A DNA stretch of 41,467 nt from Polyangiaceae bacterium (lineage in GTDB: Bacteria > Myxococcota_A > Polyangia > Polyangiales > Polyangiaceae), in NCBI GenBank assembly GCA_025353725.1, contig JANXOF010000020.1:1-41467 (forward strand), read 5' to 3'. Position 1 is the first letter of the stretch; every line of letters starts with the position of its first letter. The notes under the pieces were generated by a model. The model saw only the letters and a program-made list of their open reading frames with translations. It made no database searches and had not been told where the DNA came from. The translations under genes were made by a program, and so were the position numbers. Of the stretch, positions 1-41,019 are shown in pieces.

Positions 1-139
1 ACCCACGCGACGCTCTTCAAGTCGATACCGTCTTTGTGCATCTCATAGAGCGGGGACATGTCTCGAAGCGAGTTTACTTTGCCGATGACGAGATCGGCCA
101 CGAAGTCGACCTCTTCTTCGGTATTGAACCGACCGAGAC
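1..139 (-). pseudogene. iscS: C-terminal shard of IscS-type cysteine desulfurase
   Basis: Read on the minus strand from position 139 towards 1, the frame gives [12 protein letters not shown], then [10 protein letters not shown] and [10 protein letters not shown]. This is the conserved C-terminal tail of IscS/NifS, the PLP enzyme that takes sulfur from cysteine for Fe-S cluster assembly. The few terminal residues lie beyond the window edge. Upstream, where the PLP-binding body should continue, the sequence switches abruptly into repeat A copy 1, so the catalytic part is absent and the shard cannot be functional here. Family match is by recalled motif; the truncation is seen directly. Confidence 0.8.
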
Positions 140-249
140 CAGATCGGTCGGTATTCCGCTGGGGCTGGAACTTTCTGCAACGATCGTCGTGAATTGCGCG
201 TTACGTCTTCTCTCGGCTTCCGCCTCGACCGTTTGCGCTACCTATTCGC
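140..249 (+). repeat. Repeat A copy 1 (110 bp)
   Basis: Starts CAGATCGGTCGGTATTCCGC and ends GCGCTACCTATTCGC. Identical to copies 3 and 4. Left flank is an iscS shard on the minus strand and right flank a nucleotidyltransferase shard on the plus strand, so the copy sits exactly at a joint between two unrelated genes. No target-site duplication is visible. Confidence 0.97.
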
Positions 250-469
250 CATCGAACAGAGCAACGGCTTCGACTTGGGCGAAGGCATCAGCCTGACGAC
301 ATGCTCGGCTCAGAATCTTATCGTCCACAAGACCTTTGCTGCGTGCGAAAAGGATTGGCTTGATGCTCGCGGTATCAACATTCGTCAGGGCTCTCGACTC
401 GAGCGATGGCGCACACGCAAAGCCCTGCGGCAGTCGTTGTATTGGCCACTAAGCTCACGACCGTTTTGA
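250..469 (+). pseudogene. C-terminal shard of a nucleotidyltransferase (DUF6036/AbiEii-like)
   Basis: Immediately after repeat A copy 1 the frame reads FDLGEGISLTTCSAQNLIVH, then KDWLDARGINIRQGSRLE, and stops at 467-469. The pattern of an SAxxLIVxKxFA segment followed by DWxDxxGIxxRQGxxLD is typical of the second half of MNT-like nucleotidyltransferases, a family found in toxin-antitoxin and abortive-infection loci. The N-terminal catalytic GS..D.D part is missing. The frame runs open from the repeat into the shard. The last ~25 residues do not look like the family, so a second break is possible. The assignment is from motif memory. Confidence 0.6.
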
Positions 470-660
470 ATAGGCGGCCGCGCAAAACTGAGTGATGTGG
501 CAGATAGCCGAGACTCAATCTTGTTCCACTTCCTCGTGGCCGGTGGCTAGTGGTGTCTAGCAATCCGACGCTCAAGCTCCGGCGGGGAGGGTATTGCGCA
601 TCGAGTGCCCGCCGGTCGCTCCCGCCATCGCCGACCACGACGATGCAAGCCGCGACGTGG

Positions 661-1914
661 TCAGGGAAAGCCTACAACGTCCGCGGGCACGAGGCCCTTG
701 ACCTTGGTGTTGTTGCCGAGTTGGCCGTAGTTGTTGGACCCCCAACACTTTAGGCTGCCGCCGGAGGTAAAGGCACATGTGTGCTTGTAGCCCGCCGCCA
801 CGGAAGTGACGCCGCTTGTAAGGCTATTAACATCGACGGACACGAGGCTTTTGACTTTACTGTTATCGCCAAGTTGACCTTCGCCGTTGTCTCCCCAACA
901 CTTGACGCCGCCGCCAAAGGTAAGCGCACAGGTGTGGTAGTCGCCTGCCGTCACGGCAATAACTCCGCTGGTGAGACCGATTGCGTCGACTGGCACTAAG
1001 CTACCCTCAGTGCCATTATTGCCAAGTTCGCCGAAGGCGCCGCGTCCCCAACACTTGACGCGGCCGCTGGAGCCGAGCGCACATGTATGAGCGGAGCCCG
1101 CCGCCAAGGCGGTGACGCCGCTGCTCAGGCCGTTCACATCAATGGTTACAAGGCTTGTGACTTTGCTGTTATTGCCCAGTTGGCCACTGCCGTTGTCTCC
1201 GAAACACTTGACGCTGCCACTGGAGGTGAGGACACACGTGTGAGCGGTGCCCGCCGCCAAGGCTGTGGCTCCACTGGGCAGGCCGTTCACATCGACGGGC
1301 ACGAGGCTATTGACGTTGCTGTTGTTGCCTAGTTCGCCGTTGACATTTCTTCCCCAACATTTGAGGCCGCCGCCGGCGGTCACGGCACAGGTATGGACGT
1401 CCCCGGCTGTAACGGCAACGACACCGCTGGGGAGGCCATTCACATCGACGGGCACCGGGCTATTGACGGTGCTGTTGTTGCCAAGTTGGCCATAACCGTT
1501 GTCTCCCCAACACTTGACCCCGCCGCCGGAGGTGAGCACACACGTGTGGGCGTCGCCCGCTGTGACAGCAGTGATTCCGCTGGGCAGGCCGTTCACATCG
1601 ACGGGCACCAGGCTGCTGACGGTGCTGTTGCTGCCAAGTTGGCCGTCGCCGTTGTGTCCCCAACACTTGAGGCGGCCGCCGGAGGTAAGCGCACACGTGT
1701 GGGCGTCGCCCGCGGCAATCCTTACCGAGGCCGGCATGGCCTGAATTGCGTCCGGAATCCCGCTCGCGTCCGAGTTGGCGTGGTTGGGAGGCGGCAGACC
1801 GGCGTCCGGCGCGCCCAAGACGCCAGACGGATCCGCGACGGACGCGGCGCACGCGGCTGCTGAGAGTGCAAGGATTAGGGCACGAATGGTGTGGTGCCTA
1901 ATGGCAACTTTCAT
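661..1914 (-). CDS. RCC1-repeat lipoprotein
   Basis: A 417-residue secreted protein. The N-terminus (MKVAIRHH...LALSAAACA) is a signal peptide with a probable lipobox cysteine near residue 22-23. After a Pro/Asp-rich linker come about seven ~50-residue RCC1 units, each with a GDxHTCALTSGG strand, a KCWG motif and a GQLGNNS turn; these fold as a beta-propeller, usually a binding scaffold. Two cysteines per repeat suit an extracytoplasmic protein. Such RCC1 lipoproteins are common in myxobacteria; the ligand is unknown. The protein stops right after the last unit (DVVGFP), slightly early for a closed propeller, so a small C-terminal loss is possible. No partner gene is adjacent. The start is the only Met before the signal peptide. 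Confidence 0.88.
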   Translation of the reverse strand: MKVAIRHHTIRALILALSAAACAASVADPSGVLGAPDAGLPPPNHANSDASGIPDAIQAMPASVRIAAGDAHTCALTSGGRLKCWGHNGDGQLGSNSTVSSLVPVDVNGLPSGITAVTAGDAHTCVLTSGGGVKCWGDNGYGQLGNNSTVNSPVPVDVNGLPSGVVAVTAGDVHTCAVTAGGGLKCWGRNVNGELGNNSNVNSLVPVDVNGLPSGATALAAGTAHTCVLTSSGSVKCFGDNGSGQLGNNSKVTSLVTIDVNGLSSGVTALAAGSAHTCALGSSGRVKCWGRGAFGELGNNGTEGSLVPVDAIGLTSGVIAVTAGDYHTCALTFGGGVKCWGDNGEGQLGDNSKVKSLVSVDVNSLTSGVTSVAAGYKHTCAFTSGGSLKCWGSNNYGQLGNNTKVKGLVPADVVGFP

Positions 1915-2054
1915 GGATTTCTTTCAGGTGTAGACCGCCAAGATGGCCATAACGGCGCATCAATGTGCCAAGTCGTGGTGGGGAAGGCGCATGAAGAGCG
2001 CCAAGATGGACGTCGGCGGTTGAAAGTGCGTCCAGAACTATCACGCTTTTTTTA

Positions 2055-2078
2055 GAGATATGACTAGCAGTTGTGGAT
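2055..2078 (+). repeat. 24-bp motif shared with 6246-6269
   Basis: GAGATATGACTAGCAGTTG plus TGGAT matches 6246-6269 at 19 of 24 positions, all five differences being transitions. One copy lies 110 bp before the IS256 shard and the other directly before repeat A copy 3. It may be a remnant of a shared mobile-element end. Confidence 0.35.
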
Positions 2079-2164
2079 CGGTGTGAGCTGAAAAGGCCGC
2101 GTACCTTTCGAGGTGGACCAACCACCCACGGTGCCCCCGGGCAGGGCGAGAAGGCACGCCGATA

Positions 2165-2440
2165 TTGGCGGCAGTCGAGAAGCGGCACGGGGACGAGACC
2201 GAGCGCGAGGTGTCGGCGCTTGATCGCCTGGCACGTGAGACCGCGCCAAGGATGTTGGAGCGAGCCCTGGAAACAGAAGTCGAGTCGTACATCGAGCGGC
2301 ACCGCAATGCCCGGGACGAAGGCGGTCACACGCTCGTCGTGCGCAACGGGCGGTCTCCAGCTCGCTCCGTGGTTGTGGGCGCCGGCGTGCTCGGAGTGCG
2401 GGCGCGTCGTGTCAACGACAAGCGAGTGGTTGACGGCGAT
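2165..2440 (+). mobile_element. N-terminal shard of an IS256-family (Mutator-type) transposase
   Basis: The frame from a TTG at 2165 reads LDRLARETAPRMLERALETE, then VESYIERHRNARDEGGHTLV and VRNGRSPARSVVVGAGVLGV, then RARRVNDKR. This is the conserved N-terminal region of IS256 transposases (ER-rich helices, then the VRNG...V..G.L.V..PRV.D strand). After about residue 90 the similarity ends and the DDE catalytic core is missing, so this is a dead fragment. Inverted ends were not found. It lies among other transposase shards in this 6.7-kb decayed zone. Confidence 0.8.
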
Positions 2441-2852
2441 CGACAGAAGTCCACGAGACTTAGGAAGAGCGCGGAGAACATAGATTTTGCCTTGATCGCC
2501 ATCATGAAAGAGAGCCGTCGATTGCTGCCGCCCGTGAAGTTACAACACTTCGAGAGCCGACAACGCGATGCGCGTTACGTGATGTAACAAACGATGCGAG
2601 ATCTCAACGAGTAGACGGTCGAGCCCCGAAACGTTGCATGAGACTAGTTCCGAAACCGTACGGGTACGCGACAACAGCGCCGCGTCGAGCGAAACCGCGC
2701 TCAGCAAGACTTTCTCGATGATACGCGTGCGCCAAAGACTGCTCAGCGAAGGCGAGAGTGCGAGAAGGCGATGCCGACCTGGTCGCTAGGATGTGATCGT
2801 CGAGCGCGTAGCCGAGCAGCGATTCTCGGCGACACGGCCGCCTAACGATTCC
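2441..2852. other. No recognisable gene
   Basis: The open frame from the IS256 shard runs on to 2587, but the residues after 2440 match nothing I recognise and codon choice becomes irregular. No RNA gene, terminator or further insertion-sequence end was seen. It is probably decayed sequence between the IS256 shard and repeat A copy 2. Confidence 0.6.
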
Positions 2853-2962
2853 CAGATCGGTCGGTATTCCGCTGGGGCTGGAACTTTCTGCAACGATCGT
2901 CGTGAATTGCGCGTTATGTCTTCTCTCGGCTTCCGCCTCGACCGTTTGCGCTACCTATTCGC
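2853..2962 (+). repeat. Repeat A copy 2 (110 bp) with a duplicated 3' tail
   Basis: Differs from copies 1, 3 and 4 by one transition (GTTATGTC instead of GTTACGTC). Its final 17 bp, TTGCGCTACCTATTCGC, are repeated immediately at 2963-2979, as if a 5'-truncated second copy or a slippage product had been added at the 3' end. The flanks are not recognisable genes. Confidence 0.97.
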
Positions 2963-3023
2963 TTGCGCTACCTATTCGCACAAGATAGTATCTATACCCA
3001 CACGTTCGTCAAGCGCCTTGCGT

Positions 3024-3491
3024 TCACTCTCTCTTCGGGGCGCAGATCGGGTCGCGCCCTCTGTGGAGGCGCTGGCAGCAATAGCCCTGGTCGCCGTCCC
3101 ATTCCCCGACAACGCAATCCGGGTCGGGGATGCTGATATTGGTGCCGGGCTCGACGGCGCACTCACCGGAAGGGCCCACGGGTCGCCCTGGCCACGGGCA
3201 GTTCTGCTGGGCGTCCGGAAGCGGGCCGACGCAGAGGCAAGCAGATGAATTGAGTACGTAGTTTGTGGGGCAATACAACTTGCAAGCCCATACCCCACAC
3301 AGGTGGGCTTCCTTCGACGGGTCGGTCCCGCAATGGGGTTCCGCCGCGCGCACCGACGCGCGTGTCTTAACCGCTGGTTTCCTCGCGATCTGGGATTCCG
3401 ATTCGCCATCGCTAGACGTCGGAGATGCGCTGCACGCGATGGCTGTAGCCGCTGCGGCGATTGCGAACGAGGTGCAAAAGAGGCGAGGCAT
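3024..3491 (-). CDS. Cys-rich secreted lipoprotein of unknown function
   Basis: Predicted 155 residues. MPRLFCTSFAIAAAATAIAC is a lipoprotein signal with the lipidated cysteine at residue 20. The mature part is about 135 residues with some 12 cysteines (for example HLCGVWACKLYCP, ACLCVG, GYCCQ), suggesting a disulfide-bonded extracytoplasmic domain. I do not recognise the family. No coding neighbour shares its strand, so it is probably monocistronic; its upstream region runs into shards at 3650. The ATG is the first in frame and directly precedes the signal peptide, though no strong ribosome-binding site is visible. Confidence 0.75.
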   Translation of the reverse strand: MPRLFCTSFAIAAAATAIACSASPTSSDGESESQIARKPAVKTRASVRAAEPHCGTDPSKEAHLCGVWACKLYCPTNYVLNSSACLCVGPLPDAQQNCPWPGRPVGPSGECAVEPGTNISIPDPDCVVGEWDGDQGYCCQRLHRGRDPICAPKRE

Positions 3492-3703
3492 AATATACTT
3501 GTGACTTTCTTCCCAGCGGGTGTTGGTGTTTTGCGATGCTCAACCTAATAATCTACTTCCAGCCAATTCACATGAGACGGCTCACAGATGTCGGCCCCTC
3601 GGATGAGTTCAGATCGCCGACGAGCATCGGGTTTAGCAGCGCGCCGTGAGTGCGCAAGAAGCCTACGTCGCATTCACCCTCTTCCCCACCCTACGCCCGC
3701 GCT

Positions 3704-3757
3704 ATCTACCCGGTGATGATGGCCGGCTTCTTCATGGATCCGATCCATGGCGGCGAC
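3704..3757 (+). pseudogene. Possible shard of gluconate 2-dehydrogenase subunit 3-like protein
   Basis: The in-frame peptide AGFFMDPIHGGD resembles the conserved GFFxDPxYGGN signature of the gluconate 2-dehydrogenase subunit 3 family, the small periplasmic partner of GMC-type dehydrogenases. Only about 17 residues remain, and the frame passes directly into an IS5-type transposase C-terminus. The shard is too short for certainty. Confidence 0.4.
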
Positions 3758-3871
3758 GCGCGCTCGGAAATCGAGTGCACATTCAGCCTCCTCAAACCGG
3801 CCCATCGTTTTGCAACTCGCTACGAGAAGACGCGAACGAATGCGGTGCGGGCCATTCGGTCGAGGAGGTAA
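3758..3871 (+). mobile_element. C-terminal shard of an IS5/IS4-superfamily transposase
   Basis: The frame reads SEIECTFSLLKPAHRFATRY, then EKTRTNAVRA, and stops at 3869-3871. This matches the E-containing C-terminal helix of IS5-type DDE transposases (xIExxFxxLKxxRRxATRYEK). The same segment occurs on the minus strand at 6497-6640 in a different version (SENECTFSLLKQARRFATR), so at least two copies of related elements once lay here. Upstream catalytic aspartates are absent. Confidence 0.7.
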
Positions 3872-4009
3872 GCGCGTCCAAGTACATCGACCTCGAAATC
3901 GCCATACTCGCTGCTTGGCGTCCACGAATCCCGGAGAGCAACGAAGCTCTTCACCTTACGCTGGACGCCATCTACGTCTTCGGACCCTTGGAGTGGGTCA
4001 AATCGGTGA

Positions 4010-4110
4010 GCAGTTCCGCTACGGGCGGACAGATCTGGGCGAGGTCGCATCATTGAGCGTTAACGTCGCCTCCCTACCCGCAAGTACCCCGCGTGGACGA
4101 CCTATCCGCT
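4010..4110 (+). repeat. Repeat B copy 1 (~101 bp)
   Basis: Starts GCAGTTCCGCTACGG and ends GACGACCTATCCGCT. About 90% identical by eye to an inverted copy at 5135-5234. Shared features with repeat A are an ATCGGT just upstream, TTCCGCT at the start, an ATTGnGCGTTAnnGTC core and ACCTATyCGC at the end, in the same order and at similar spacing. Right flank is a YncE-like shard. Confidence 0.85.
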
Positions 4111-4359
4111 CACCGGACGGTGTCGCTCGGCTCAATCTACGAACGACCAACCTTGAACGTCGGACGTCATTTCCGAAAAACAATGTACGCTTCCGTATGC
4201 CATTCGCATCGCTAAAGACAAGCGAACGTACGTGGCTTGCGAAGGGGACCATCGCGGCCCCGGAACCGTCCTCCAGCTCGACACGAATACGCTAAGCGTT
4301 ATTCCATCATGGACCGCACGGGTTTATCCCGACGGCTTGGCATTCGGTGACGACTAAAT
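4111..4359 (+). pseudogene. C-terminal shard of a YncE/YVTN-type beta-propeller protein
   Basis: After repeat B the peptide DGVARLNLRTTNLERRTSFP, and then, after a frame change near 4190, IRIAKDKRTYVACEGD and GTVLQLDTNTLSVI ... RVYPDGLAFGDD are readable, ending at a TAA at 4357-4359. This resembles the last blades of YncE-like surface beta-propellers (xVxxLDxxTxxV and YPDGIA motifs). The N-terminal blades are missing and a frameshift is present, so it is a pseudogene piece. The match is from memory and moderate. Confidence 0.5.
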
Positions 4360-4429
4360 ACAAGCGACTTCGAGCCGCGCGCGGTGCAAACAGAACTGAC
4401 CCGCAACCCTTCCCTATTTCGCTATTGCT

Positions 4430-5275
4430 TCACGGAAGGAGGAGAATTTTCCCAACACTCTTACGACTTTCGATAAAGCGATGCGCTTCCTGCCCTTCAG
4501 ACAATGAAAACCGTTCCCCGATTTCGATCTGCACACTCCCGTCTCGAATCCACTGAAATAAGTTCGTAGCGCGCCGGAGTCGCTCGCTCGGCGAAGTCAA
4601 CACGTTCAAGAGGTCATCTCCCGAAAGAGTCTTCGAACCGTCCATGAGGATACGAGGGTCGACTGGCTTTGGCGTTCCGCCCGCCATGCCGTAAAAAACC
4701 ACGTGGCCTCCGATTCGAACGGCTTGAAGGCTTATGTCCAGCGTTGACCCGACCGAGTCGTAAACGACGTCGACCCCGCCATATTCGCCAAACGCCCGAG
4801 CCCTAGCAAGCCAGTCGTCGCCGTACGTAAGGGCGCATTCGGCCCCAGCGGCGAGAGTCGCCGCTGCTTTTGCAGGAGAAGAAGTAAACGTAAGGACCCG
4901 CGCACCGAGCGAACGCGCGAACTGGACGAGCAACAGGCCCACGCCTCCGGCCGCAGCGTGAACCAACACGCTCTCGGAGGCACACAGCGGATAGCTGTCG
5001 GTAACGAGATACTGGGCCGTAAGTCCTTGCAGGAGCACCGCCGCCGCCGTCTCAAACGAGATGTCATCGGGGAGCGGAATGACCTTGGCCGCAGGAACGG
5101 AGACTCGTTCCGCATTCGCGAACGGGCTATCGGCAGCGGATAGGTCGTCCAAGCGAGGTAGTTGCGGGTAGGGAGGCGACATAACGCTCAATGATGCGAT
5201 CTCGCCCCAACCTGTCCGTCCGTAGCGGAACTGCCACCAGTTGGCGACTCGGCACCGACCGCGACGTGTTCGCAT
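4430..5275 (-). pseudogene. Zinc-type quinone oxidoreductase, N-terminal half replaced by repeat B
   Basis: From about 5134 down to 4430 the frame encodes the NAD(P)-binding and C-terminal parts of a QOR-type medium-chain reductase: AAAVLLQGLTAQYLV, the dinucleotide-binding HAAAGGVGLLLVQFARSLGA, GVDVVYDSVG, GGHVVFYG, and the tail LSEGQEAHRFIESRKSVGKI. These enzymes reduce quinones with NADPH. Normal proteins have ~110 further N-terminal residues forming the catalytic fold (GGPEVL..., GxDxAGxV). Here those are replaced by 35 residues read from repeat B copy 2, preceded by 14 unrelated residues to an ATG at 5275. The frame is open across the joint, so a chimeric protein could be made, but activity is unlikely. 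Confidence 0.82.
5135..5234 (-). repeat. Repeat B copy 2 (~100 bp), inverted
   Basis: Reverse-complement partner of 4010-4110; about ten differences and a one-base gap. In the quinone oxidoreductase frame it reads QFRYGRTGWGEIASLSV and continues without a stop into the enzyme. The copies lie 1.0 kb apart and point towards each other, enclosing the YncE shard and the truncated oxidoreductase. Confidence 0.85.
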
Positions 5276-5484
5276 TGCCGCTCGAAGACATGACGCCCGC
5301 GGCGTTCAAGATGATGCTCGGCTGACGTCCACGCACGACTCCGCGCGACCTGCATCCCGTCATAGCTGATGGCTCACCCAGCCGCAGCGACTGCAGAGCC
5401 ACGACGTAGCGCGTGCCCTTCGCTCGTCTCGTCTGGCTGGCGAGTGCAGCTTGCCCCCATTGATTCGACTGCTAGACCACGCCG

Positions 5485-6051
5485 ATGCACACATTCGCAC
5501 TGCCAACCCCATCGCTAATTGCCAGCCTGATTTTTTCGTCGTCGCTTCTTGCCTGCACGGCGACAACCGAAGGTCCGGAACACGACGGCATGATTGAATC
5601 CGCGCTCTACTGCGGCGGCGTTCCGGACGCCAATGGGACGACCTCAGGTGCAGACTGCGCAATCATCCCGAATCGCGCGATGCCGGACTTGCCGGCACGC
5701 CAGGTCTTCGAGGTCCGACGTTTGTGCAAACGCTTCAGTCGTGGAGACATCACGGGCCACTACGTGAGCCACGCCGGCGGCACCGTACGAAGCATCCGCT
5801 GGACACAGGAGATCCAGTGGCCGTCAATCGATGAAATTGCAAAAACCGGCGGTAAAATTTCAAAACATGGGTTGCCCCTGGATTATTTCGGAACGTATGA
5901 TCCAGCCATAAAGACGAGCACTAACAGCGCGATCGGCCTGGCGAATAACATCGAGGTCAGATGGGCCCTCGACTCGAAAGGTGCTATCAACCTAACCAGT
6001 TTGTCGGGGTCAATTTACGACCTTTATGACTGTCATCCGGTCGCCCGCTGA
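5485..6051 (+). CDS. Secreted lipoprotein of unknown function
   Basis: Predicted 188 residues. MHTFALPTPSLIASLIFSSS followed by LLAC gives a lipoprotein signal with cysteine at residue 24. The mature part contains six further cysteines and a moderately conserved-looking core (VRRLCKRFSRGDITGHYVSH, LPLDYFGTYDPAI), ending DLYDCHPVAR. I do not recognise the family. The ATG is preceded by no strong ribosome-binding site. A short plus-strand peptide at about 5250-5325 ending DMTPAAFKMMLG may be the end of another lost gene. Downstream lies an uncharacterised 225 bp, then repeat A copy 3. Confidence 0.72.
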   Translation: MHTFALPTPSLIASLIFSSSLLACTATTEGPEHDGMIESALYCGGVPDANGTTSGADCAIIPNRAMPDLPARQVFEVRRLCKRFSRGDITGHYVSHAGGTVRSIRWTQEIQWPSIDEIAKTGGKISKHGLPLDYFGTYDPAIKTSTNSAIGLANNIEVRWALDSKGAINLTSLSGSIYDLYDCHPVAR

Positions 6052-6276
6052 TCGAAGAGACAAATCTCGAATCAAGTTGAGTCAGCGCATCGCGGCCCCG
6101 CCCCGGAGGGTTCCGGATCGAGCGGCGCTTCGTGCTCGTCGATGTCGGCTGCTGCATGAAGCCTGCGACGCAGTTACGCCATCGGTGGGTGTCAAAGCAA
6201 TTGTCGCTTTTTTCTCATGCGCTGTGGAGTGGCGAGTGACAACGCGAGATATGGTCAATAGTTGTGGATTGAGGTC

Positions 6277-6386
6277 CAGATCGGTCGGTATTCCGCTGGG
6301 GCTGGAACTTTCTGCAACGATCGTCGTGAATTGCGCGTTACGTCTTCTCTCGGCTTCCGCCTCGACCGTTTGCGCTACCTATTCGC
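6277..6386 (+). repeat. Repeat A copy 3 (110 bp)
   Basis: Identical to copies 1 and 4. Right flank begins TCAGCGATCAG and holds ~110 bp of open but unrecognised sequence before the inverted IS5-type transposase end. Left flank is directly preceded by the 24-bp motif also seen at 2055. Confidence 0.97.
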
Positions 6387-6496
6387 TCAGCGATCAGCTC
6401 GGCAAGGCGACGATCGTCCGCGTTGTAGCGAAGCTCATCAAGCTCGCGATGAGCTTCGAGGACGGGCGAGGCGCCCCCGAAAAAAGCCGCGACGTC

Positions 6497-6720
6497 TAGC
6501 TTCTAAGCCACAGGAGAGCGCATCCCATCGCGGCGGCGTAGTTGCGCAGCGTCTTCTCCTCGCGGGTTGCAAAGCGACGGGCCTGCTTGAGCAGGCTGAA
6601 GGTGCACTCGTTCTCCGAACCCGCCTTTTAGCATTCCTTGTCGTACGGCAGCTTCTGCGCGCGGCTGCCGTTCGACGGCCATGACGGGGATGCAGTTCTG
6701 TGCCGCGACCGATCTCGTCT
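6497..6720 (-). mobile_element. C-terminal shard of an IS5-family transposase with an internal stop
   Basis: On the minus strand the frame gives PSNGSRAQKLPYDKEC, an in-frame TAA, then KAGSENECTFSLLKQARRFA and TREEKTLRNYAAAMGCALLW ending LRS. The YDKxxYKxRxxxExxFxxLKxxRRxATRxEK arrangement is the C-terminal third of IS5 (IS427-like) transposases, with the stop in place of a tyrosine-like position. The catalytic N-terminal part is gone, its place taken by the end of the Cys-rich lipoprotein gene. The element is dead. Confidence 0.75.
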
Positions 6721-6749
6721 CGCTTCACGGCGCCACGTAGGGACAGGCC

Positions 6750-8327: not shown

Positions 8328-8495
8328 GATTCATCCCTCTGGCGGTCAACAGAGGTAATACCGCACGTTTGAATGGTGTCAGAACGGGGCCTCTATCGCG
8401 CAGCAATCGGCCCTATCTTGTTTTTTCGTACGTGGGTGTCGGCGTTACCCGCTGTTCTTCGCCGGGGGGGCTACGTGACGCCGCGCGTGGACGGG

Positions 8496-9230: not shown

Positions 9231-9259
9231 GGGCTGGTACTCTTTCGTACGCGTCACCA

Positions 9260-14833: not shown

Positions 14834-15051
14834 CAGCGTCTTCTCCCAGGCGTCCGGTTGCAGTCCCTCCCTTGTACCGGAGAAGGGGCGTGCGCCTAGC
14901 CTGTAGAAACGAATGAGACGTAAGGGAAATCCGGAGGGGCGGGGGAGCTGTCGGCGTCCGCCCTCACGCTGCTCGAACTGCTCGAACCGTGGGCGCCAGG
15001 GCGCTGGGGGCCGGAGGCGAGCCACTGGCGTCGTACCGACTCGGAATCGGT

Positions 15052-15855
15052 TTAGTCTGCGTGCGACGATAAAGTTGCGAGCACCACGTCCGTGAGCGAA
15101 GCGTCGTCGCGCGACGAGAGGTCAAGGACGAGCGACGTGACGGAGGCCGCACCTCGGTCGTAGGCGTCCGTGTCGCTACCGGGGTCTGGATCGTGGCGTA
15201 CGCCCGGACCTCCGACCCAGAGGTATTCTCGTCCTCTAGGGTCGACGCGGAACTCGATGTCTTCCTCGTAAAGCCGAGCGCCGAGGCGCGTCTTTTGTAT
15301 CTCGCCGTTCCATTCGAGCGGTACGTTCAGATTGAGCAGAGGCGTGTTGCGGACCACTGACGGACCCGGTCGCGGTCCCGCACCGAGAGCGCCGTGCGTG
15401 GCGTCGTAAAGACTTCGAGCCAAACGGGAAGTGAGTGTGGCCACGCGCACGAGGTCGGCGTTTACGTCGGAGCTCGAGGCTATCGCGGGAATACCGCGGA
15501 GCGCGCCTTCACGGGCGGCGGCGATCGTCCCTGAGTAAAACGCGTCTTGGCCTAGGTTCAAACCGCGATTGATGCCCGAACACACAAGGTCGGGCCAGCG
15601 AGGGAGAAAACGCGTCGCAGCGTGCAGCGCAACATAGACGCAATCGGCGGGTGTCCCATCAATGGCAAACATGCCCCGCTCGACCTCGCGCGTTCGCAGG
15701 GGGCGGTAAAGACTGAGGGAGTGGCTGGTGGCACTTTGCTCGGTCTCGGGCGCCACGACGACGACCTCCGCCCACGTCGAGAGCGCATCGCGCAACGCAC
15801 GAATCCCGGAGCTTTGATAACCATCGTCATTCGATACAAGGATTAGAGGACGCAT
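15052..15855 (-). CDS. surE: 5'/3'-nucleotidase SurE
   Basis: 267 residues, the usual family length. SurE is a metal-dependent phosphatase that dephosphorylates nucleoside 5'- and 3'-monophosphates. The N-terminal ILVSNDDG carries the paired metal-binding Asp; EQSATSHSLSL contains the catalytic Ser/His loop; GTPADCVYVAL, SGINRGLNLG and YSGTIAAAREG are the other signature motifs, and NTPLLNLNVP follows. All expected residues are present. The gene stands on the minus strand between the protease and a ferritin-like gene and has its own gap of ~57 bp, so co-transcription with 15913 is possible. In many bacteria it neighbours pcm and rpoS, which is not the case here. Confidence 0.95.
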   Translation of the reverse strand: MRPLILVSNDDGYQSSGIRALRDALSTWAEVVVVAPETEQSATSHSLSLYRPLRTREVERGMFAIDGTPADCVYVALHAATRFLPRWPDLVCSGINRGLNLGQDAFYSGTIAAAREGALRGIPAIASSSDVNADLVRVATLTSRLARSLYDATHGALGAGPRPGPSVVRNTPLLNLNVPLEWNGEIQKTRLGARLYEEDIEFRVDPRGREYLWVGGPGVRHDPDPGSDTDAYDRGAASVTSLVLDLSSRDDASLTDVVLATLSSHAD

Positions 15856-15912
15856 CGTTCGTCACGCAAACCTACCACGGCGGCCAAGCGCACGTGGGTG
15901 CACGCTGCGCGG

Positions 15913-16305
15913 TTATTCAGGACGGCCTTCAAGTAGTGCCGTGAGCAAGCCGAGCTGCATGTTCGCATTGACCGGGGCGGCGCCGCCGAGATCCATTGCC
16001 AAACGGCTTGCGAGTTCGACGTGCGTCACTTCGTCCAGCACAAAGTCAGCCGCCATTCCGACGAGGTCGAGCGGCGCTTTGGCTACGGCCAGCGCGCGAA
16101 CGACATCGGAAAAGGCGAGCACCGCCCGATATTCGCTAATCGCAATTTCAGTCCAACTCCACCGCGCACTATCGAGAAGCTCCGGTGAATACTTTGCGAG
16201 GTTGACCGAACCCCACGGCAGATCGTCAAGCCCCGGGCGAGTGCTCCGGTAGTGGCACTCCGCGATGCCTCCCAACCATTCGAGCTCAAACGCGCCTTCA
16301 GTCAA
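15913..16305 (-). CDS. Ferritin-like domain protein
   Basis: 130 residues beginning at a TTG whose bases overlap the stop of the upstream gene (TTGA), implying translational coupling. The sequence is helical, with SWTEIAISEYRAVLAFSDVV carrying an E/Y pattern and FVLDEVTHVELASRLA providing DExxHxE, the di-metal binding pattern of ferritin-like four-helix bundles. It ends at NANMQLGLLTALLEGRPE after only the first two or three helices; related myxobacterial proteins are usually longer, so it may be truncated or the annotation may hide a frameshift. Function (oxidoreductase, iron handling) cannot be set from sequence. Confidence 0.7.
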   Translation of the reverse strand: MTEGAFELEWLGGIAECHYRSTRPGLDDLPWGSVNLAKYSPELLDSARWSWTEIAISEYRAVLAFSDVVRALAVAKAPLDLVGMAADFVLDEVTHVELASRLAMDLGGAAPVNANMQLGLLTALLEGRPE

Positions 16306-16559
16306 CGGTCTCGCTCCGCGTCACTCACGGCGGCGTCCGCCCGGGGCGTTTGGTTTGGATCGTAACAGGTATACCCGGGCTTTGGTGTATTCGACCGGAC
16401 CCCTGCGGCGTCGGCGCCGGCATCACTGGGAGTACATGTATACAGCACGGAAGGTAAGCCCACGGCATCGCCGCAGGCCGCAGTCGTAGCGGTGACTGCC
16501 GTAGCAGTAGCCATTGAGGCTCGGGCAAGTAGGCTTCGTGGCTTCCGTAACCTCTTCAT
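16302..16559 (-). CDS. Small Asp/Ala-rich lipoprotein
   Basis: 85 residues from the ATG at 16559, chosen because it directly precedes an arginine-rich, possibly Tat-compatible signal (MKRLRKPRSLLARASMATAT...AACGD) with cysteine near residue 28. The mature part has two cysteine-flanked segments (VLYTCTPSDAGADAAG and PGYTCYDPNQTP). Similar short lipoproteins sit in front of ferritin-like genes in myxobacterial genomes, in my recollection, and here the stop codon overlaps the start of the ferritin-like gene, so the two products probably work together. No enzyme motif is present. Confidence 0.65.
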   Translation of the reverse strand: MKRLRKPRSLLARASMATATAVTATTAACGDAVGLPSVLYTCTPSDAGADAAGVRSNTPKPGYTCYDPNQTPRADAAVSDAERDR

Positions 16560-16763
16560 TGGGTTCACGATAGGCTTCGTCACGCTACGTAGCGAGACCG
16601 ACGCGCCCCTCCCAGCGTCCGCTGACGCCGTGAGGTTGCTGAAAACTGCCTTTCGCATTTGCTTGTGCATCACTGGCGTCTGGGCGGGAACGCCGGACTT
16701 GGAGACCACGCTCGACGAACGCCCTGCACCTCGCCTAGGATTCCCGAACTTTCAGGAGGAATC

Positions 16764-17345
16764 ATGCGCGCCTTCATAGTTGCCGTTGCAGGTCTTACGT
16801 TCGTCTCTTCCGTCGCCTCGGCTGAACCGCCGCCAAAGGCGTCCGGCGCTCCTGCCTCTGGCGCTGCGGCTATGCACGGCGACAGGAAGGGCGAAGGTGT
16901 CGCCGTGCACGGCGAGAAGAAGGGTGAAGGCGCCGTGGAGCCCGGCGACAAGAAGGTCGAAGGAGCTACGGCTCGCGGCGATAAAAAGGTAGACGACGAC
17001 GATGACGACGCGCCCGCAGGTGCCACCGCCGCTGCCGGCAAGCCCCCGGTGGGTCGTCGCACGCCCGCTCAGCTCGCGTTCCGCCAGGAGCTATGGAAGC
17101 GTCGTGAGCAGGCCATCGAGGCAAAGGTTCACAAGGGCGGAAGGCGATTGACCGAGGAAGAGCGCGAGGCAGTCAAGGCGCACTGGCTGCGCGTCAGCCG
17201 CCTCATGCGAATCCGTGAGTTAGCGCAGGAGGACAAGGCGGACGCCATCGTCAAGCGCGCCGACGCGGCCCTTGCGCGTGAGGAAAAAAAGATGGACACG
17301 AAGCTCGATAAGATAACCGCCAAGGCGACGGGAGGTGTGAAGTGA
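16764..17345 (+). CDS. Secreted charged-repeat protein of unknown function
   Basis: 193 residues. AGGAGG lies 5 bases before the ATG, and MRAFIVAVAGLTFVSSVASA is a clean Sec signal cleaved after SA-EP. Residues ~37-75 hold four imperfect 12-residue units (HGDRKGEGVAV, HGEKKGEGAVE, GDKKVEGATA, GDKKVDDDDDD), a run of Asp follows, and residues ~100-190 form a basic, probably coiled-coil region (RQELWKRREQAIEAKV, LTEEEREAVKAHWLRVSRLM). No family is recognised. The stop overlaps the GTG of the next gene by four bases (GTGA), so both are one operon. Confidence 0.82.
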   Translation: MRAFIVAVAGLTFVSSVASAEPPPKASGAPASGAAAMHGDRKGEGVAVHGEKKGEGAVEPGDKKVEGATARGDKKVDDDDDDAPAGATAAAGKPPVGRRTPAQLAFRQELWKRREQAIEAKVHKGGRRLTEEEREAVKAHWLRVSRLMRIRELAQEDKADAIVKRADAALAREEKKMDTKLDKITAKATGGVK

Positions 17346-17659
17346 AGCGCGCACGGCTTGTCACGCTCGCCGTCGTCGTCACACTCGCCGCTGTCGGAGC
17401 CTGCACTCCGAAGGAGACTGCGGCGACAGCTGACGCGCAAGCGTCGACGACCGGAAGCACGCCTACGACCGCCTCTTCGACGACAGCCGCGGCGACGCCG
17501 AGCGCGTCTGCGGCCGCGTCGACCGCGTCGACCGCGGTGGGCGCGACGGGGCCCGACTTGTTGCCGAGTCACGGTGAGATTGCCAAGCAGGTGCGCGGCG
17601 AGGTCACGAAGCAGAACTACAAGTCAGAGCTCGACAAACTCGAGAAGGAGCCTGAGTAG
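17342..17659 (+). CDS. Small Ala/Thr/Ser-rich lipoprotein
   Basis: 105 residues starting with GTG at 17342, overlapping the previous stop; the GGAGGTG inside the upstream gene is its ribosome-binding site. MKRARLVTLAVVVTLAAVGA precedes the lipobox cysteine at residue 21. A low-complexity Ala/Thr/Ser stalk of ~45 residues leads to a short charged C-terminal helix (HGEIAKQVRGEVTKQNYKSE). The coupling suggests that it anchors or assists the charged-repeat protein encoded just upstream. No homologue is recognised. Confidence 0.8.
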   Translation: MKRARLVTLAVVVTLAAVGACTPKETAATADAQASTTGSTPTTASSTTAAATPSASAAASTASTAVGATGPDLLPSHGEIAKQVRGEVTKQNYKSELDKLEKEPE

Positions 17660-17703
17660 CTGGTGCTAATCAGGCCTTAGAGTTGCGAGGGGGCGCGGAG
17701 TCG

Positions 17704-18261
17704 CTACCGCGACCACAGGGCCCCGAGCTCGAGTTCCACGGCATCGAAAGGTGCTACGCGCACTCTGTCGAAGTCTTCGTGCGTCGCGATAAGCAGGTAG
17801 CTGTCACCTTCGCTACGAAACGCTTCGAGTGTCTTAGCGAGGGGGTCAATTAGCCAGAGGTAGGCGACGTGCTCGCGCGCGTAGATGCGTCGTTTTGGCC
17901 CGCGGTCGACCTTGCTCGTGTTCGGGGACAGCACCTCGCAGATCCAGTCTGGTGCCATGGTGAAGTACGCGGCCTCGGGCATCTCCGGCATACGCTCGCG
18001 GCGCCACCCGGCCAGGTCCGGCACTACGATGTCGCTCTCAAAATGCAGTTCGGGCTCATCGAGAATGAGCCATCCGCCGGGCCCTCCGCGGCCCCGGTCG
18101 AATGGCCCGCCGATATCGATACCGAGCGTCGATGCCGCGCGCGCGTGGGGGCTGGCGGGTCGTGGATGCGCATGGAGCACACCTTCTACGATTTCCGCGA
18201 CCTGGGGCTCGGGAACGGCGAGGAGGTCCTCGTAGGTGGCCAAGCGATGCGCCTGAGACAT
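17704..18261 (-). CDS. Uma2-family (DUF820) PD-(D/E)XK nuclease-like protein
   Basis: 185 residues from the ATG at 18261 (MSQAHRLATYEDLLAVPE); longer in-frame extensions are low-complexity and unlike the family. Key elements are the opening YEDLLAVPEPQVAEIVEGVL, the DIVVPDLAGW strand with the first catalytic Asp, WICEVLSPNT (the D/E-x-K-like strand), and DRGPKRRIYAREHVAYLWLI DP. Uma2 proteins have a restriction-endonuclease fold, are often highly paralogous, and have no settled function; a role in DNA metabolism or mobile elements is inferred. The gene converges on the lipoprotein gene ending at 17659, with 44 bp between stops. Confidence 0.88.
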   Translation of the reverse strand: MSQAHRLATYEDLLAVPEPQVAEIVEGVLHAHPRPASPHARAASTLGIDIGGPFDRGRGGPGGWLILDEPELHFESDIVVPDLAGWRRERMPEMPEAAYFTMAPDWICEVLSPNTSKVDRGPKRRIYAREHVAYLWLIDPLAKTLEAFRSEGDSYLLIATHEDFDRVRVAPFDAVELELGALWSR

Positions 18262-18577
18262 GGCTTTAATGCTAGCATGCCCAGGCTGACTGGGCCGATG
18301 CGCCCTCGGGCGCCGAGACGCTCCCGGGCGTTGCCCAAATACGTCCGCGGGGCGGTTCGCAGGCGCTTCCCCCGCGGTCGCGACTTCCTGGCTGTTAGGC
18401 GCCTTCCCGGTCGTTGGGGCACATCGTGCCACCACGGCGACAAGCGTTTGTCTAGCCTTTCGCGCCGGCAACCACCTACGCTTTGTTTCGGAAGAAGCGC
18501 CGGTCAGAGTTGAACCCGAAGCTCGGCGAGGGCCGGGAGTCAGGCCAACAGATGCGGGCTTCAAAAAGGAGGCGGGG
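18262..18577. other. Divergent intergenic region, no gene recognised
   Basis: 316 bp between the Uma2 gene (minus) and the glutaminase shard (plus). It should contain both promoters. A strong ribosome-binding site, AAGGAGGCGGGG, ends it at 18577. No coding or RNA feature was recognised. Confidence 0.6.
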
Positions 18578-19066
18578 ATGACGACAGGCTCCGGTAGCGC
18601 GCGACCACCCAGGACGAGAGCGATTGCAGACTCGATGGTGCCGGGATCGATACCGCCTCCGGTGGTCGAATTGATCTCGGAGGAGACGCGCGACCGGCGA
18701 CTGCTCCGCGCGCTCGACGTCAGCGGCACCGGACAGATCCCGCGTCGAGCATTGGCGGAAGCGGTCGCACGCGTCGGCCTTCGCGCCGATGACGTCCGGC
18801 TCGCAGAGTCGATGCAGCGCTTGGCGGAATATAGAGACGACGCGGTTCTTTCCACCGACGAGATGGTGCAGGTGATGCGCCCGAACGTCTCGCTTATCGA
18901 GCGCGCGTTGCGGGGTAACCTCGTGATCCCCGATTTTCCGGGCTTCTGTGACGAGATCCTCGAAATCTACGAGGAAACCCGGAACATCGGGGGCGGAAAG
19001 GTCGCTGATTATATCCCGCAGCTCGCGCGCGTGCCGGCGAAGCATTACGGCGTTTCGGTCTGCACT
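18578..19066 (+). pseudogene. glsA: N-terminal shard of glutaminase A with EF-hand-like domain
   Basis: The gene starts well (AAGGAGGCGGGG then ATG). Residues ~25-100 form an EF-hand-like pair (LLRALDVSGTGQIPRRALAE, DAVLSTDEMVQVM) as in glutaminases with that fusion. Then come LIERALRGNLVIPDFPGFCD and GGGKVADYIPQLARV, typical of the glutaminase N-terminus, and YGVSVCT just before the point where the family continues DGQRxSxGD and the catalytic SxxK. Exactly there repeat A copy 4 begins, and the frame runs 37 codons into the repeat before a stop at 19178-19180. The serine-nucleophile domain is missing, so no glutaminase activity is expected. Confidence 0.82.
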
Positions 19067-19176
19067 CAGATCGGTCGGTATTCCGCTGGGGCTGGAACTT
19101 TCTGCAACGATCGTCGTGAATTGCGCGTTACGTCTTCTCTCGGCTTCCGCCTCGACCGTTTGCGCTACCTATTCGC
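19067..19176 (+). repeat. Repeat A copy 4 (110 bp)
   Basis: Identical to copies 1 and 3. It joins a glutaminase N-terminal shard on its left to an FGE C-terminal shard on its right, both on the plus strand. In the glutaminase frame it reads [18 protein letters not shown]. Confidence 0.97.
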
Positions 19177-19433
19177 GTAGCGCACCGGGGGGCGATGGGC
19201 GGTGGGGTCACGCTGATTTAGGTGGCAATGCGTGGGAATGGAATGCCGACGGGTATCAAGTCTATTCGACGCTATGCATCGATTGCGCAAGCTTTACCCA
19301 AGCCGCCGATCGGGTGATTCGGGGCGGTAGTTTTAACAATGAAGCCTCGAAATTGCTTGCTTCAACGCGCGGCAGCGTTCCGCCGACGAATCGGGGCAGC
19401 GATGTCGGCTTTAGGTGCGCGAGAATTCCCTAA
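19177..19433 (+). pseudogene. C-terminal shard of an FGE/SUMF1-like protein
   Basis: Right after repeat A copy 4 the frame reads GDGRWGHADLGGNAWEWNAD, then ADRVIRGGSFNNEASKLLAS, then NRGSDVGFRCARIP and stop. This is the complete C-terminal portion of the formylglycine-generating-enzyme (SUMF1/EgtB/PvdO) fold, with the GNxxEW, RGGSF and VGFRCAR signatures. The N-terminal two thirds are absent. It is very close to the matching part of the gene at 20785-21932 and keeps a G that is missing there, so it documents the undamaged reading of that paralogue. Confidence 0.85.
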
Positions 19434-19570
19434 CCGTGGTCGCGCTTGCCTCCCAGCGCACGCAAGAATTGCCGCGCAATATGCTTCTTATCCATCAGGC
19501 GCTCAGGAGTAAGCAGTGCACCCTCACTTGCATACATGACCTTCGATGCTAGTACGTCGTCGGAGGAGTG

Positions 19571-20209
19571 ATGACCATGAACTTTACAAAGATTGCTGGG
19601 GTAGCAATGCTGTTTGCAGCGTCGGCGAGCCTCGCTGGATGCGCGGAATCCGTGAGCGATTCCAGCCAGGAGGTCGAAAACCTGACCCCTTCGGGCACGG
19701 CGAGCGCGGCACCCTTTTACAAGGTCTCGATAGGGCGGGCCCCGGAGGCCTCACTCATCTGGACGTACCACCCTACGTTCACCGCTCCAGCGTCCCGCTT
19801 GAACGCAAACGGCATCAAGTTTCATCGCAACTACACGCGGTTCGGCGACACCATCCCCGTGCAGCCGGGCAAGTCGATTCGATTTACCAATGACGCGGCG
19901 TTCGAGCTAAAGATCGAGGTCACCGTCATTCATTTCGGGGGCGGTCAAGAGCCTCCGTGCGATGCGCCGGCGACGTTTGACCGGCGACCGACGGTGACGC
20001 TCGCTCCAGGAGCGACGCTTGACGCGGTCGTCCCGTCGCAGTTCGGGGATATCGTCGAAGTCGTCATTCCGAGGGGTCAGCGAAGCTACGAGCAGTCGGG
20101 GACTCTCGTGCACGATAACGCATTCGACTACGTCGCTTCGAAAAGCGACACAGCGCTCACGGGAATGGGAACCTGTCACGGAGGCCCGCCCGGAGGCGCA
20201 TCCCTGTAA
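19571..20209 (+). CDS. Secreted lipoprotein of unknown function
   Basis: 212 residues from the ATG at 19571, behind GGAGGAG. MTMNFTKIAGVAMLFAASAS followed by LAGC is a lipoprotein signal with cysteine at residue ~24. The mature part is beta-rich (ASLIWTYHPTFTAPASRLNA, DTIPVQPGKSIRFTNDAAFE, VEVVIPRGQRSYEQSGTL), resembling a cupredoxin- or Ig-like sandwich, with a short Gly/His-rich tail (MGTCHGGPPGG). No family is recognised. A stem-loop about 100 bp downstream probably ends the transcript. Confidence 0.78.
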   Translation: MTMNFTKIAGVAMLFAASASLAGCAESVSDSSQEVENLTPSGTASAAPFYKVSIGRAPEASLIWTYHPTFTAPASRLNANGIKFHRNYTRFGDTIPVQPGKSIRFTNDAAFELKIEVTVIHFGGGQEPPCDAPATFDRRPTVTLAPGATLDAVVPSQFGDIVEVVIPRGQRSYEQSGTLVHDNAFDYVASKSDTALTGMGTCHGGPPGGASL

Positions 20210-20304
20210 CGCAGGCTCTCGCGAAGGGTCGCCGAAGCGGGCGGCACATGTCCGTAGAAACGTACGGCTCATGTTTGCCAACCACGACCGGAGATGGTGA
20301 CGTG

Positions 20305-20338
20305 AGCGCCCAGGACTGGCGAGGCAGTCTTGGGCGCT
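20305..20338 (+). terminator. Stem-loop, probable transcription terminator
   Basis: Arms AGCGCCCAGGACTG and CAGTCTTGGGCGCT pair over 14 bp (one G-U) around the loop GCGAGG. No T-run follows (TACCT). It lies between the lipoprotein gene ending at 20209 and the VOC gene starting at 20370. Confidence 0.6.
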
Positions 20339-20369
20339 TACCTGCGGTTCGGTGTAGTAGAGCGACCTG

Positions 20370-20744
20370 ATGCATCGTTCACGGTTGGCGGGGTTTATCA
20401 TCGACTGCAACACGGGGGATTTGGACGCCGCATCTGCGTTTTGGGGAGCGGCGTTCGGAATGCCCGTCATTGAGCGTGAGCCACCGAGTTACGGGAGGCT
20501 CGACGCGAGTTCGCGCGACCTTCACATTGAGGTCCAAAGGGTTGACCATCCAAGTCGAGTCCACCTCGACATTGAGACTGACGACATCGATGCCGAAGCA
20601 AATCGCCTCGAACGACTCGGTGCACTGCGCATTGAAAAGATAAAGCGGTGGTGGGTAATGGAGGCGCCGACTGGGCACCGCTTTTGCGTCGTTCGGGCAA
20701 AGTCGGACCTTACCGAAGGCGTCGGCGTGAGCATCTGGCGTTGA
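20370..20744 (+). CDS. VOC-superfamily (glyoxalase/bleomycin-resistance fold) protein
   Basis: 124 residues with paired beta-alpha-beta modules: LAGFIIDCNTGDLDAASAFW opens the first and RVHLDIETDDIDAEANRLER the second, ending EAPTGHRFCVVRAK. The family binds a metal in a fold assembled from two modules and includes glyoxalases, dioxygenases and antibiotic-binding proteins; the short, single-domain form here resembles the uncharacterised glyoxalase-like group (Glyoxalase_6). HLD in the second half and GHRFCVV at the end are typical. The substrate cannot be predicted. No close operon partner: the FGE gene follows 40 bp later and may be co-transcribed. Confidence 0.87.
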   Translation: MHRSRLAGFIIDCNTGDLDAASAFWGAAFGMPVIEREPPSYGRLDASSRDLHIEVQRVDHPSRVHLDIETDDIDAEANRLERLGALRIEKIKRWWVMEAPTGHRFCVVRAKSDLTEGVGVSIWR

Positions 20745-20784
20745 ATTTCACCACGCGTTGGCTCGTTGCAGGTAGCTCTTGAAG

Positions 20785-21932
20785 ATGCGAGGACGTGGGA
20801 TGGCTGTCGTGTTGGGTTGCGTCGTTACGGCGCCTTTTGCAGTGGCGTGCGCGGGCATCTTGGGCATCCACGAGCTGCCTTTGGACGACGGCCCTGACGA
20901 CGCCGCTGCGCAGGGCGAGGGTGGGCTCCCCGAAGCACGCGACCCACGTGACGCGAGCTTTCTTTCTGACGTCGGCGACGTGCCTGGTCCGCCGGACGGC
21001 AGCGTCATCGTGGCGCTGCTTCCCCCGAGTTGCGGCGTCGGCGACGCGGGCGGCCTTGGCCTCTCGAACTGCGGCCCTGTTCGCAACGAAAGCTGCTGCG
21101 CAAGCCCGCTTGTTCCGGGGGGTACGTATTACCGAGGCTACGATGGCGTAAGCAACAAGGACACAAGCGCGCCTGCGACGGTGAGCAGCTTTCGCCTCGA
21201 AAGGTTCGAGGCAACGGTGGGTCGATTCCGTAAGTTTGTGGCGGCTTCATCGGCGGGTTGGGTGCCCCCAGAAGGATCGGGGAAACACACCCACGTCAAC
21301 CATGGCGAAGGACTTTTGCAAGGCAGCTCGAATGTTCACGAACCAGGGTGGGACAGTACTTGGAATACCAACTTGGCAAATTCGCAAGCCGCATGGACGG
21401 AGAAGCTCTCGTGTGATTCGACCTACCAAACATGGACGGGTACACCAGGTGCAGACGAGGAACGCCCGATCGTCTGTGAATCATGGTTCGAGGCTGCGGC
21501 ATTTTGCATTTGGGACGGGGGGTTTCTGCCGAGTGAAGCCGAATGGAACTATGCGGCTTCAGGTGGAGACGAGCAGCGACCCTACCCCTGGTCCAATAAC
21601 CCTCCAACGTCGATAGATGTGGATTGTGGACGTGCGAATTATTCTGGATGTGCCGGAAGCACAATCAAGGTTGGTAGCGCACCGCAAGGTGATGGGAGAT
21701 GGGGCCATGCGGACTTGAGCGGCAATGCGTGGAATGGAATACAGATTGGTATCAAGCCTATTCAACGCCGTGCACGGATTGCGCAAACTTCACTCAAACG
21801 ACTTACCGCGTGACTCGAAGAGCAGGGTTTGGCAACGGCGCGTCAGAACTACTTGTTTCAACGCGAAGAAACTTTCCACCAGATCGGTCGGCATTCCGCT
21901 GGGGCTGGAACTTTCTGCAACGATCGTCGTGA
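20785..21932 (+). pseudogene. FGE/SUMF1-like lipoprotein, frameshifted and with its C-terminus replaced by repeat A
   Basis: Starts at ATG 20785 with a lipoprotein signal (MRGRGMAVVLGCVVTAPFAV then ACAGI). After an Asp/Ala linker the formylglycine-generating-enzyme fold follows: GGTYYRGYDG, SSFRLERFEATVGRFRKFVA, PIVCESWFEAAAFCIWDGGF, LPSEAEWNYAASGG, GDGRWGHADLSGNAW. At about 21733 one G of a GGG run is missing compared with the shard at 19190, shifting the frame to a stop at 21813. The true continuation (DWYQAYSTPCTDCANFT, then VTRRAGFGNGASELLVST) is in the next frame and runs into repeat A copy 5, ending [18 protein letters not shown] at 21932 instead of a normal VGFRCAR end. Confidence 0.85.
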
Positions 21933-21989
21933 ATTGCGCGTTACGTCTTCTCTCGGCTTCCGCCTTGACCGTTTGCGCTACCTATTCGC
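21880..21989 (+). repeat. Repeat A copy 5 (110 bp)
   Basis: Identical to copy 6; differs from copies 1, 3 and 4 by two transitions (GGCATTCC, CTTGACC). Left flank is the FGE gene, cut about ten residues before its normal end; right flank is non-coding sequence leading to the AbiEi-like gene. Confidence 0.97.
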
Positions 21990-22067
21990 CCATCCGTTCG
22001 AACTTTCGTGCGCCTTGCTCGTACGCCAGTTGCACCGTATCTTTTCTTCGGGAAGTCGAGAACAGTT

Positions 22068-40909: not shown

Positions 40910-41019
40910 CAGATCGGTCGGCATTCCGCTGGGGCTGGAACTTTCTGCAACGATCGTCGTGAATTGCGCGTTACGTCTTCTCTCGGCTTCCGCCTTGACC
41001 GTTTGCGCTACCTATTCGC
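40910..41019 (+). repeat. Repeat A copy 6 (110 bp)
   Basis: Identical to copy 5. Sits inside an open frame and is read as [19 protein letters not shown]. Confidence 0.97.

Follow-up and report, generated by a model that had tools for sequence, protein, structure and literature searches.

Chromosomal integrons hold cassette arrays with repeats of the VCR type, diversity-generating retroelements contain repeats copied by a reverse transcriptase (RT), and in eukaryotes long and short interspersed nuclear elements (LINEs and SINEs) can insert at DNA breaks independently of an endonuclease. Repeats of Nannocystis exedens that resemble multicopy single-stranded DNA (msDNA), Retron-Nex1/Ne160, were reportedly described by Lampson and Rice in 1997 and by Lampson in 2002. 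How arbitrary DNA turns into a cassette, and how bacteria gain fragments beside short repeats, is little understood. An excerpt of PMC6868368 describes msr/msd repeats that are duplicated in Nannocystis with no RT close by, and cites two papers on possible msDNA retrotransposition in this organism. Here we analyse repeat A, a sequence of 110 bp (CAGATCGG...CTATTCGC) that occurs seven times, always on the + strand, in a contig of 41,467 nt from an uncultured Polyangiaceae bacterium (JANXOF010000020.1; the entire contig, C44 in our numbering, is called the window). The original prediction, made from the letters of the first 22,067 nt, held that copies of this repeat mark joints between pieces of unrelated genes; we confirm this for the seven window copies, including copies 6 and 7 past position 22067. 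The known cassette and transposon systems tested here do not explain the joints, and we tentatively favour a reading in which a DNA end is extended by copying of a short template, after which the growing strand switches by microhomology into unrelated DNA.

As in chromosomal integrons, the repeats are numerous, nearly identical and of a similar length, most of them point one way, and the cargo is varied. Unlike in integrons, (i) no match in the genome reaches the cut-off of the IntI model (TIGR02249; best 75.5 bits, cut-off 265), (ii) repeat A has no attC-like fold, (iii) the cargo consists of gene fragments and the 5′ ends are variable, and (iv) none of the five tyrosine-recombinase matches in the genome lies on a repeat-bearing contig, although two of their contigs, C32 and C39, share end words with the array contigs C45 and C80. 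With LINE/SINE insertion at breaks the locus has in common a fixed 3′ end, 5′ truncation, the lack of a target duplication and a patch of sequence at rearrangement joints, whereas here the setting is bacterial, there is no poly-A tail and no identified enzyme, and the arrays run one way. Diversity-generating retroelements resemble it in having RT-copied repeats of about this length beside FGE-type genes; unlike them, repeat A shows no adenine-specific change (8 of 51 distinct changes fall on adenine, which occupies 15 of the 110 positions), and no sequence similar to repeat A lies within the 3.6 kb around the RT gene on contig C15. The msDNA repeats of Nannocystis exedens are likewise myxobacterial and are thought, in the excerpt of PMC6868368, to have been inserted by a distant RT; here, by contrast, no retron RT was recognised among the RT genes of a genome 97.6% complete, no fold is significant and the copies stand at joints of unrelated DNA. 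Among the matches listed in a literature search of titles and abstract openings, none concerned bacterial arrays in which a short repeat joins unrelated fragments; we do not conclude from this that such arrays have gone unpublished.

Sequences matching the first 18 nt of repeat A with at most 3 mismatches occur seven times in the window, compared with 0.06 expected in shuffled sequences. The copies and the gene pieces that they join are:

1–141, no strand: 141-nt word with which contig C90 ends and contig C52 begins; an assembly fork between intact iscS and a repeat joint
140–249, + strand: repeat A copy 1, preceded by the iscS 3′ end and followed by unrelated DNA
2853–2962, + strand: repeat A copy 2
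2963–2979, + strand: partial copy (17 nt) that repeats the repeat A 3′ end immediately behind copy 2
6277–6386, + strand: repeat A copy 3, the reference sequence
18578–19066, + strand: N-terminal piece of an EF-hand glutaminase-type gene; Glutaminase match below cut-off
19067–19176, + strand: repeat A copy 4, preceded by the EF-hand/glutaminase N-terminal part and followed by the FGE C-terminal part
19177–19433, + strand: C-terminal piece of an FGE-sulfatase gene, 71–76% identical in DNA to FGE genes on C15, C45, C95, C13 and C49
20800–21879, + strand: FGE-sulfatase gene, frame broken, cut before its end; 85% identical to C15:206330–207363
21880–21989, + strand: repeat A copy 5, preceded by the truncated FGE gene
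40910–41019, + strand: repeat A copy 6
41307–41416, + strand: repeat A copy 7; old alleles at positions 25 and 87

At copy 1, the 139 bp on the left match the C90 end at 100% identity, and the first 141 nt of the window recur both where C90 ends and where C52 begins. The path from C90 into C52 reads through as a complete gene, the C52 part of which matches class-V aminotransferases (2e-83), with NifU_N and Fe-S_biosyn genes next to it on C90; on the path from C90 into the window, the same iscS-type gene enters the repeat instead. The predicted iscS end fits this picture, while the nucleotidyltransferase predicted on the right is unconfirmed because that side (72 aa) has no Pfam match. An intact gene at the same locus, which the prediction had named as an observation that would speak against true joints, exists in the case of iscS; it stands beside the joined form in the same assembly, and this favours coexisting alleles or duplication of a piece over a simple error. 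The junction of a glutaminase N-terminus with an FGE C-terminus at copy 4 holds on its right side, where the DNA is 71–76% identical to the 3′ parts of the other FGE genes of the genome (among the matches listed). Its left side matches EF-hand_14 (5e-9) and only positions 1–30 of the Glutaminase profile (1.4e-4; 21.6 bits, Pfam cut-off 27). Copy 5 does cut an FGE-sulfatase gene (3.6e-24, profile positions 7–187 of 255), and the predicted distance of about ten residues from its end is only approximate because the frame is already broken before the repeat. Outside the window, copies truncate an MGMT gene on C50 and a LigD gene on C89; the rest of each domain is absent from the frame that runs on through the repeat, other right-side frames not having been searched.

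The glutaminase, FGE, MGMT and LigD genes enter the repeat in the same frame, which suggested an in-frame C-terminal tag; we rejected this candidate because no frame is preferred over all copies (strong left frames for A: +0, 4; +1, 4; +2, 1; −0, 2; −1, 1; −2, 3). An origin of the repeat from FGE gained no support: the frame-1 translation resembles FGE ends by eye, and the 54-aa translation has no Pfam match at E up to 1. FGE-sulfatase relatives number at least five in the genome (C15:206320–207474, C45:5119–6240, C95:16502–17644, C13 and C49; about 71–89% DNA identity), those on C15 and C45 having a repeat A copy no more than about 350 bp away.

The genome (6.62 Mb, 98 contigs, 97.6% completeness; some contigs masked) contains about 65 copies of repeat A on 20 of its 98 contigs. 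A 37-nt core of A yields 63 matches with at most 3 mismatches (42 on the + and 21 on the − strand) on 20 contigs, and a search with the 5′ motif alone gives 71 matches, six of which belong to a second family, B. Counting partial copies, the stretches compared below comprise 68 rows of A and 6 of B on the same 20 contigs. Identities among A copies range from 85 to 100%, with graded mutations. Family B is 109 bp long and has in common with A the 5′ motif CAGANCGGTCGGYRTTCCGC, the preceding pyrimidine and the length. It is present in one of 11 congeners (G007), and an exact 30-mer of B recovered a sole record from genome_contigs, JANXVA010000393.1, from a Myxococcales metagenome bin with 'k141' in the contig name, in which the sequence around B is the same as in G007. 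Repeat A was found in 0 of 57 relatives at E up to 0.001, a distant search of phages and plasmids gave no match, and neither an exact 31-mer in viral contigs nor an exact 39-mer in genome_contigs was detected. The 5′ motif, allowing one mismatch, occurs in 14 of 95 relatives (two matches in G007 and 14 elsewhere, against 4 for a reversed control); past about 28 nt, only the two loci of G007 among these 16 resemble the repeat.

We traced the flanks of the copies past their joints in a comparison that covered 1.57 Mb, about a quarter of the genome. After removal of rows in which copies matched themselves (4 of 17 left, 1 of 8 right), 13 left and 7 right flanks were traceable, at identities of 71–100%. 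None continues directly across the same copy or beside another copy, no target duplication was found in this set, and no copy in it interrupts a single gene. A comparison with all flanks covered 18 continuations downstream (from 15 copies) and 10 upstream (from 8 copies); not one of them began the other flank of another copy. Where both flanks were traced they led to different places, for C17_21402 to C16 and C39 and for C45_8440 to C83 and C95/C13. Intact counterparts exist for several flanks. Four pairs of copies take flanks from one locus: C15_485 and C45_8440 with a 231-nt gap, C87_1039 and C58_4785 with an offset of about 60 nt, C17_6316 and C95_19288 with an overlap, and C77_4024 and C82_2053 in opposite orientation. 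The suggestion that the element arrives with foreign gene ends fits in part: the larger segments of the window have few matches in the genome (among the best 40 scored candidates), while the traced flanks match the same genome.

Some blocks shared between contigs are explained by IS66-type elements (DDE_Tnp_IS66 on C17) and were set aside. Many diverged blocks ending in |GTATCCCC (among the matches listed, C21:1–424, C79, C7, C30, C43, C54 and others) were taken as IS66-type ends, one of which truncates an A copy on C21.

The ends of the copies obey simple rules. The base before a copy is a pyrimidine in all of 69 cases (C 42, T 27, purine 0), and the first base to the right (n = 73) is C in 30, T in 30, A in 10 and G in 3. 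At the left joint, the next base of the traced locus equals the first base of the element in 10 of 13 cases (P = 0.0009), with at least two matching bases in 4 of 13; one left row, C17_21402, scores 0, as a run of A differs in length. At the right joint a matching base occurs in 0 of 7 (P = 0.07, alone not significant). Both families combine a fixed 3′ end with a variable 5′ end, as in elements of the SINE/LINE type, the exceptions being two 3′-truncated copies. Five copies of widely differing age (88–99% identity to A) carry an extra 20–52 nt or so on the left with differing starts (the 20-nt case judged by eye), two solo copies begin at nt 39 and 46, and G007 holds two 5′-truncated B copies (starting at nt 39 and 69) whose right flank is common and whose left flanks differ. 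A partial copy ending exactly at the element 3′ end follows 5 of 73 copies (4 A, with partials of 17, 17, 18 and 74 nt, and 1 B, with 8 nt); a partial copy precedes none of 69. No exact terminal inverted repeat of at least 6 bases exists at the very ends of A or B; A contains one 6-bp inverted pair, located 5 and 18 nt inside its ends.

Neighbouring copies mostly point the same way if they are recent. Among A copies of at least 96.3% identity, 30 of 32 neighbouring pairs share their orientation (29 of 31 without one tandem partial), compared with 6 of 12 pairs of older neighbours; the B copies read +,+,+ on C11 and +,−,− on C38. Old alleles increase along the copy direction when positions 25 and 87, picked after a comparison of old with young copies, are scored (P = 0.00065, within-contig shuffles), as they do for the similarly picked positions 25, 28 and 87 (P = 0.0006; P = 0.03 with the window left out). 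In the window, the old-allele count from the iscS side is 0, 0, 0, 0, 1, 1, 2, whereas C16 runs in the opposite direction and C50 is flat. This is suggestive of younger alleles towards the 5′ side of the arrays.

In the copying model that we tentatively favour, A (and B) would be a small mobile element, constant at its 3′ end, of which a copy is added to a free end of DNA. The strand being synthesised would then switch, via one or two matching bases, into unrelated DNA, and repetition at the same end would build a one-way array of the form segment–A–segment–A that would grow leftwards. The template may be RNA or another short nucleic acid, and the copying enzyme may be RT-like. The model fits the constancy of the 3′ end beside a variable 5′ end, the lack of target duplications, the base rule at the left joint and the uniform orientation of recent copies within most contigs. 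If true, it would describe a bacterial counterpart of retro-insertion at DNA breaks that recurs at one end. A bolder version, which we think unlikely, is a copy-and-stitch system in which an enzyme extends a DNA end by turns, copying now a short template whose 3′ end is defined, now random DNA, own or foreign; it would lay down an ordered archive of unrelated fragments, defence genes included, in which the captured DNA carries no recombination site. The joints are countable and testable through the left sequence rule, the weaker right rule, the fixed 3′ end and the unfixed 5′ end.

Several observations weigh against copying onto DNA ends. The C after the left joint could reflect a cutting preference instead of microhomology, and two copies are truncated at the 3′ end (C21_481, ended by the IS66-type end, and one in G007). 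Folded as DNA, A does no better than shuffled sequences (z 0.13 and −0.01) and gives no attC-like fold; folded as RNA on both strands, neither A nor B does better than shuffles (B, folded with RNA parameters only, z 0.16 and 0.63). Rfam returned no match over threshold and a sub-threshold snoRNA (E 3.6) near B. Two copies on C95 have 211 nt of right flank in common and their left flanks not, so that duplication or recombination is suggested as well, and joints without a repeat exist at C53:4155/4156 and at about position 20360 of the window. The mixed orientation of the three B copies on C38 is unexpected for a one-way array, the allele gradient varies with how it is scored (P = 0.13 if every difference from the reference counts), and no enzyme among the RVT_1 genes can be assigned to the copying. 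The four RVT_1 matches represent three genes, namely the defence RT Drt5, a gene on C63 broken by a stop and the unclassified RT on C15 (L073, C15:152392–153027; 361 aa). The latter carries what we take to be an SQ motif like that of diversity-generating retroelements; its best general RT model reaches 122 bits, the group II model 108 of 300 bits and the St85 retron model 48 bits against a cut-off of 235, in a genome that is 97.6% complete and whose broken C63 RT is unclassified.

The main rival, which we consider doubtful, takes A and B as the recombination sites of a cassette array, to which a site-specific recombinase adds site-carrying segments in one orientation as in an integron. It would account for near-identical repeats with one orientation predominating per contig and for varied cargo including defence genes, such as Drt5 between B copies on C11 and type I restriction genes in the window. 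Yet integron membership fails because integrase and site structure are both wanting: IntI stays at 75.5 of 265 bits, no tyrosine recombinase lies on the repeat contigs (serine recombinases and transposases were not searched genome-wide), A lacks the attC-like fold, the cargo is made of gene fragments and not whole cassettes, the 5′ end is variable, and the partial copies have only their 3′ end in common. A recombinase, if responsible, would define an integron-like system without a known integrase or known sites. Improbable in our view is an ordinary small insertion element whose flanks were shuffled by homologous recombination between copies, with losses. The 63 near-identical core matches, the C95 copies with their common right flank and the few copy pairs whose flanks come from a single locus, albeit gapped, offset, overlapping or inverted, are compatible with it. 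The ends, however, lack exact inverted repeats of at least 6 bases, random insertion would not yield one orientation per contig, no traced copy has both halves of one gene and no traced flank has its direct continuation beside a copy. Simple insertion, which the original prediction had already set aside, fails because of these traced flanks; genome-wide shuffling, one of the options that it offered instead, finds no clear support in the continuations compared over about a quarter of the genome.

Slightly less probable still, in our estimate, is that the joints are mostly deletions, duplications and translocations between coexisting strains, with A marking fragile or recombination-prone sequence. 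Contigs that share ends in this assembly overlap by 141 nt, and array contigs share such end words with intact contigs (C44/C52, C45–C32, C16–C17, C77–C78, C80–C39, and likewise C53–C1 and C53–C52), as in a mixed population; the C45/C32 word lies inside an open frame with a partial sulfatase match, at 95% identity up to the repeat, and C16 has two copies elsewhere on the contig. A strain mixture in the assembly is likely, although coexisting strains and duplicated pieces are indistinguishable here as sources of the shared words. Joints without A also agree with rearrangement between strains, but a mechanism acting at the element itself is required because of the exact element ends in about 60 contexts and the pyrimidine in 69 of 69. 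An assembly or library artefact, by which the assembler walked through the repeat from one locus into another, has very little probability. The assembly is of metagenome type with a probable strain mixture, and several contigs end near copies. Since end-sharing contigs overlap by 141 nt, a word length that we associate with MEGAHIT, the assembler word is longer than the 110-bp repeat, which makes walks through it unlikely; the mutations among copies are graded (85–100% identity), and similar copies occur in a separately assembled congener.

Apart from the joints, the cargo includes defence genes. The antiviral RT Drt5 (L039 on C11, 441–1982; above its cut-off at 649 bits) has a B copy on either side, and the window between copies 5 and 6 (22133–33 kb) holds a type I restriction system (HsdM, S, R) together with a weak AbiEi/AbiEii-like pair, neither member of which reaches the Pfam cut-off. 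At about 20351–20372, the joint without a repeat, sequence like C9:2117–2673 (85%) passes into sequence like C32:14479–14867 (81%). An RCC1-like repeat protein at 684–1713 is built of 153-nt tandem units (6.7 copies). Positions 4005–4110 and 5135–5238 form an inverted pair of about 105 bp (90% alike) around a stretch (4113–5134) that is 71% identical to C64:95824–96849, the homology stopping at the arms; similar arms on C35, C87, C53, C38, C95 and C13 (among the matches listed) indicate another small repeat that brackets a gene piece.

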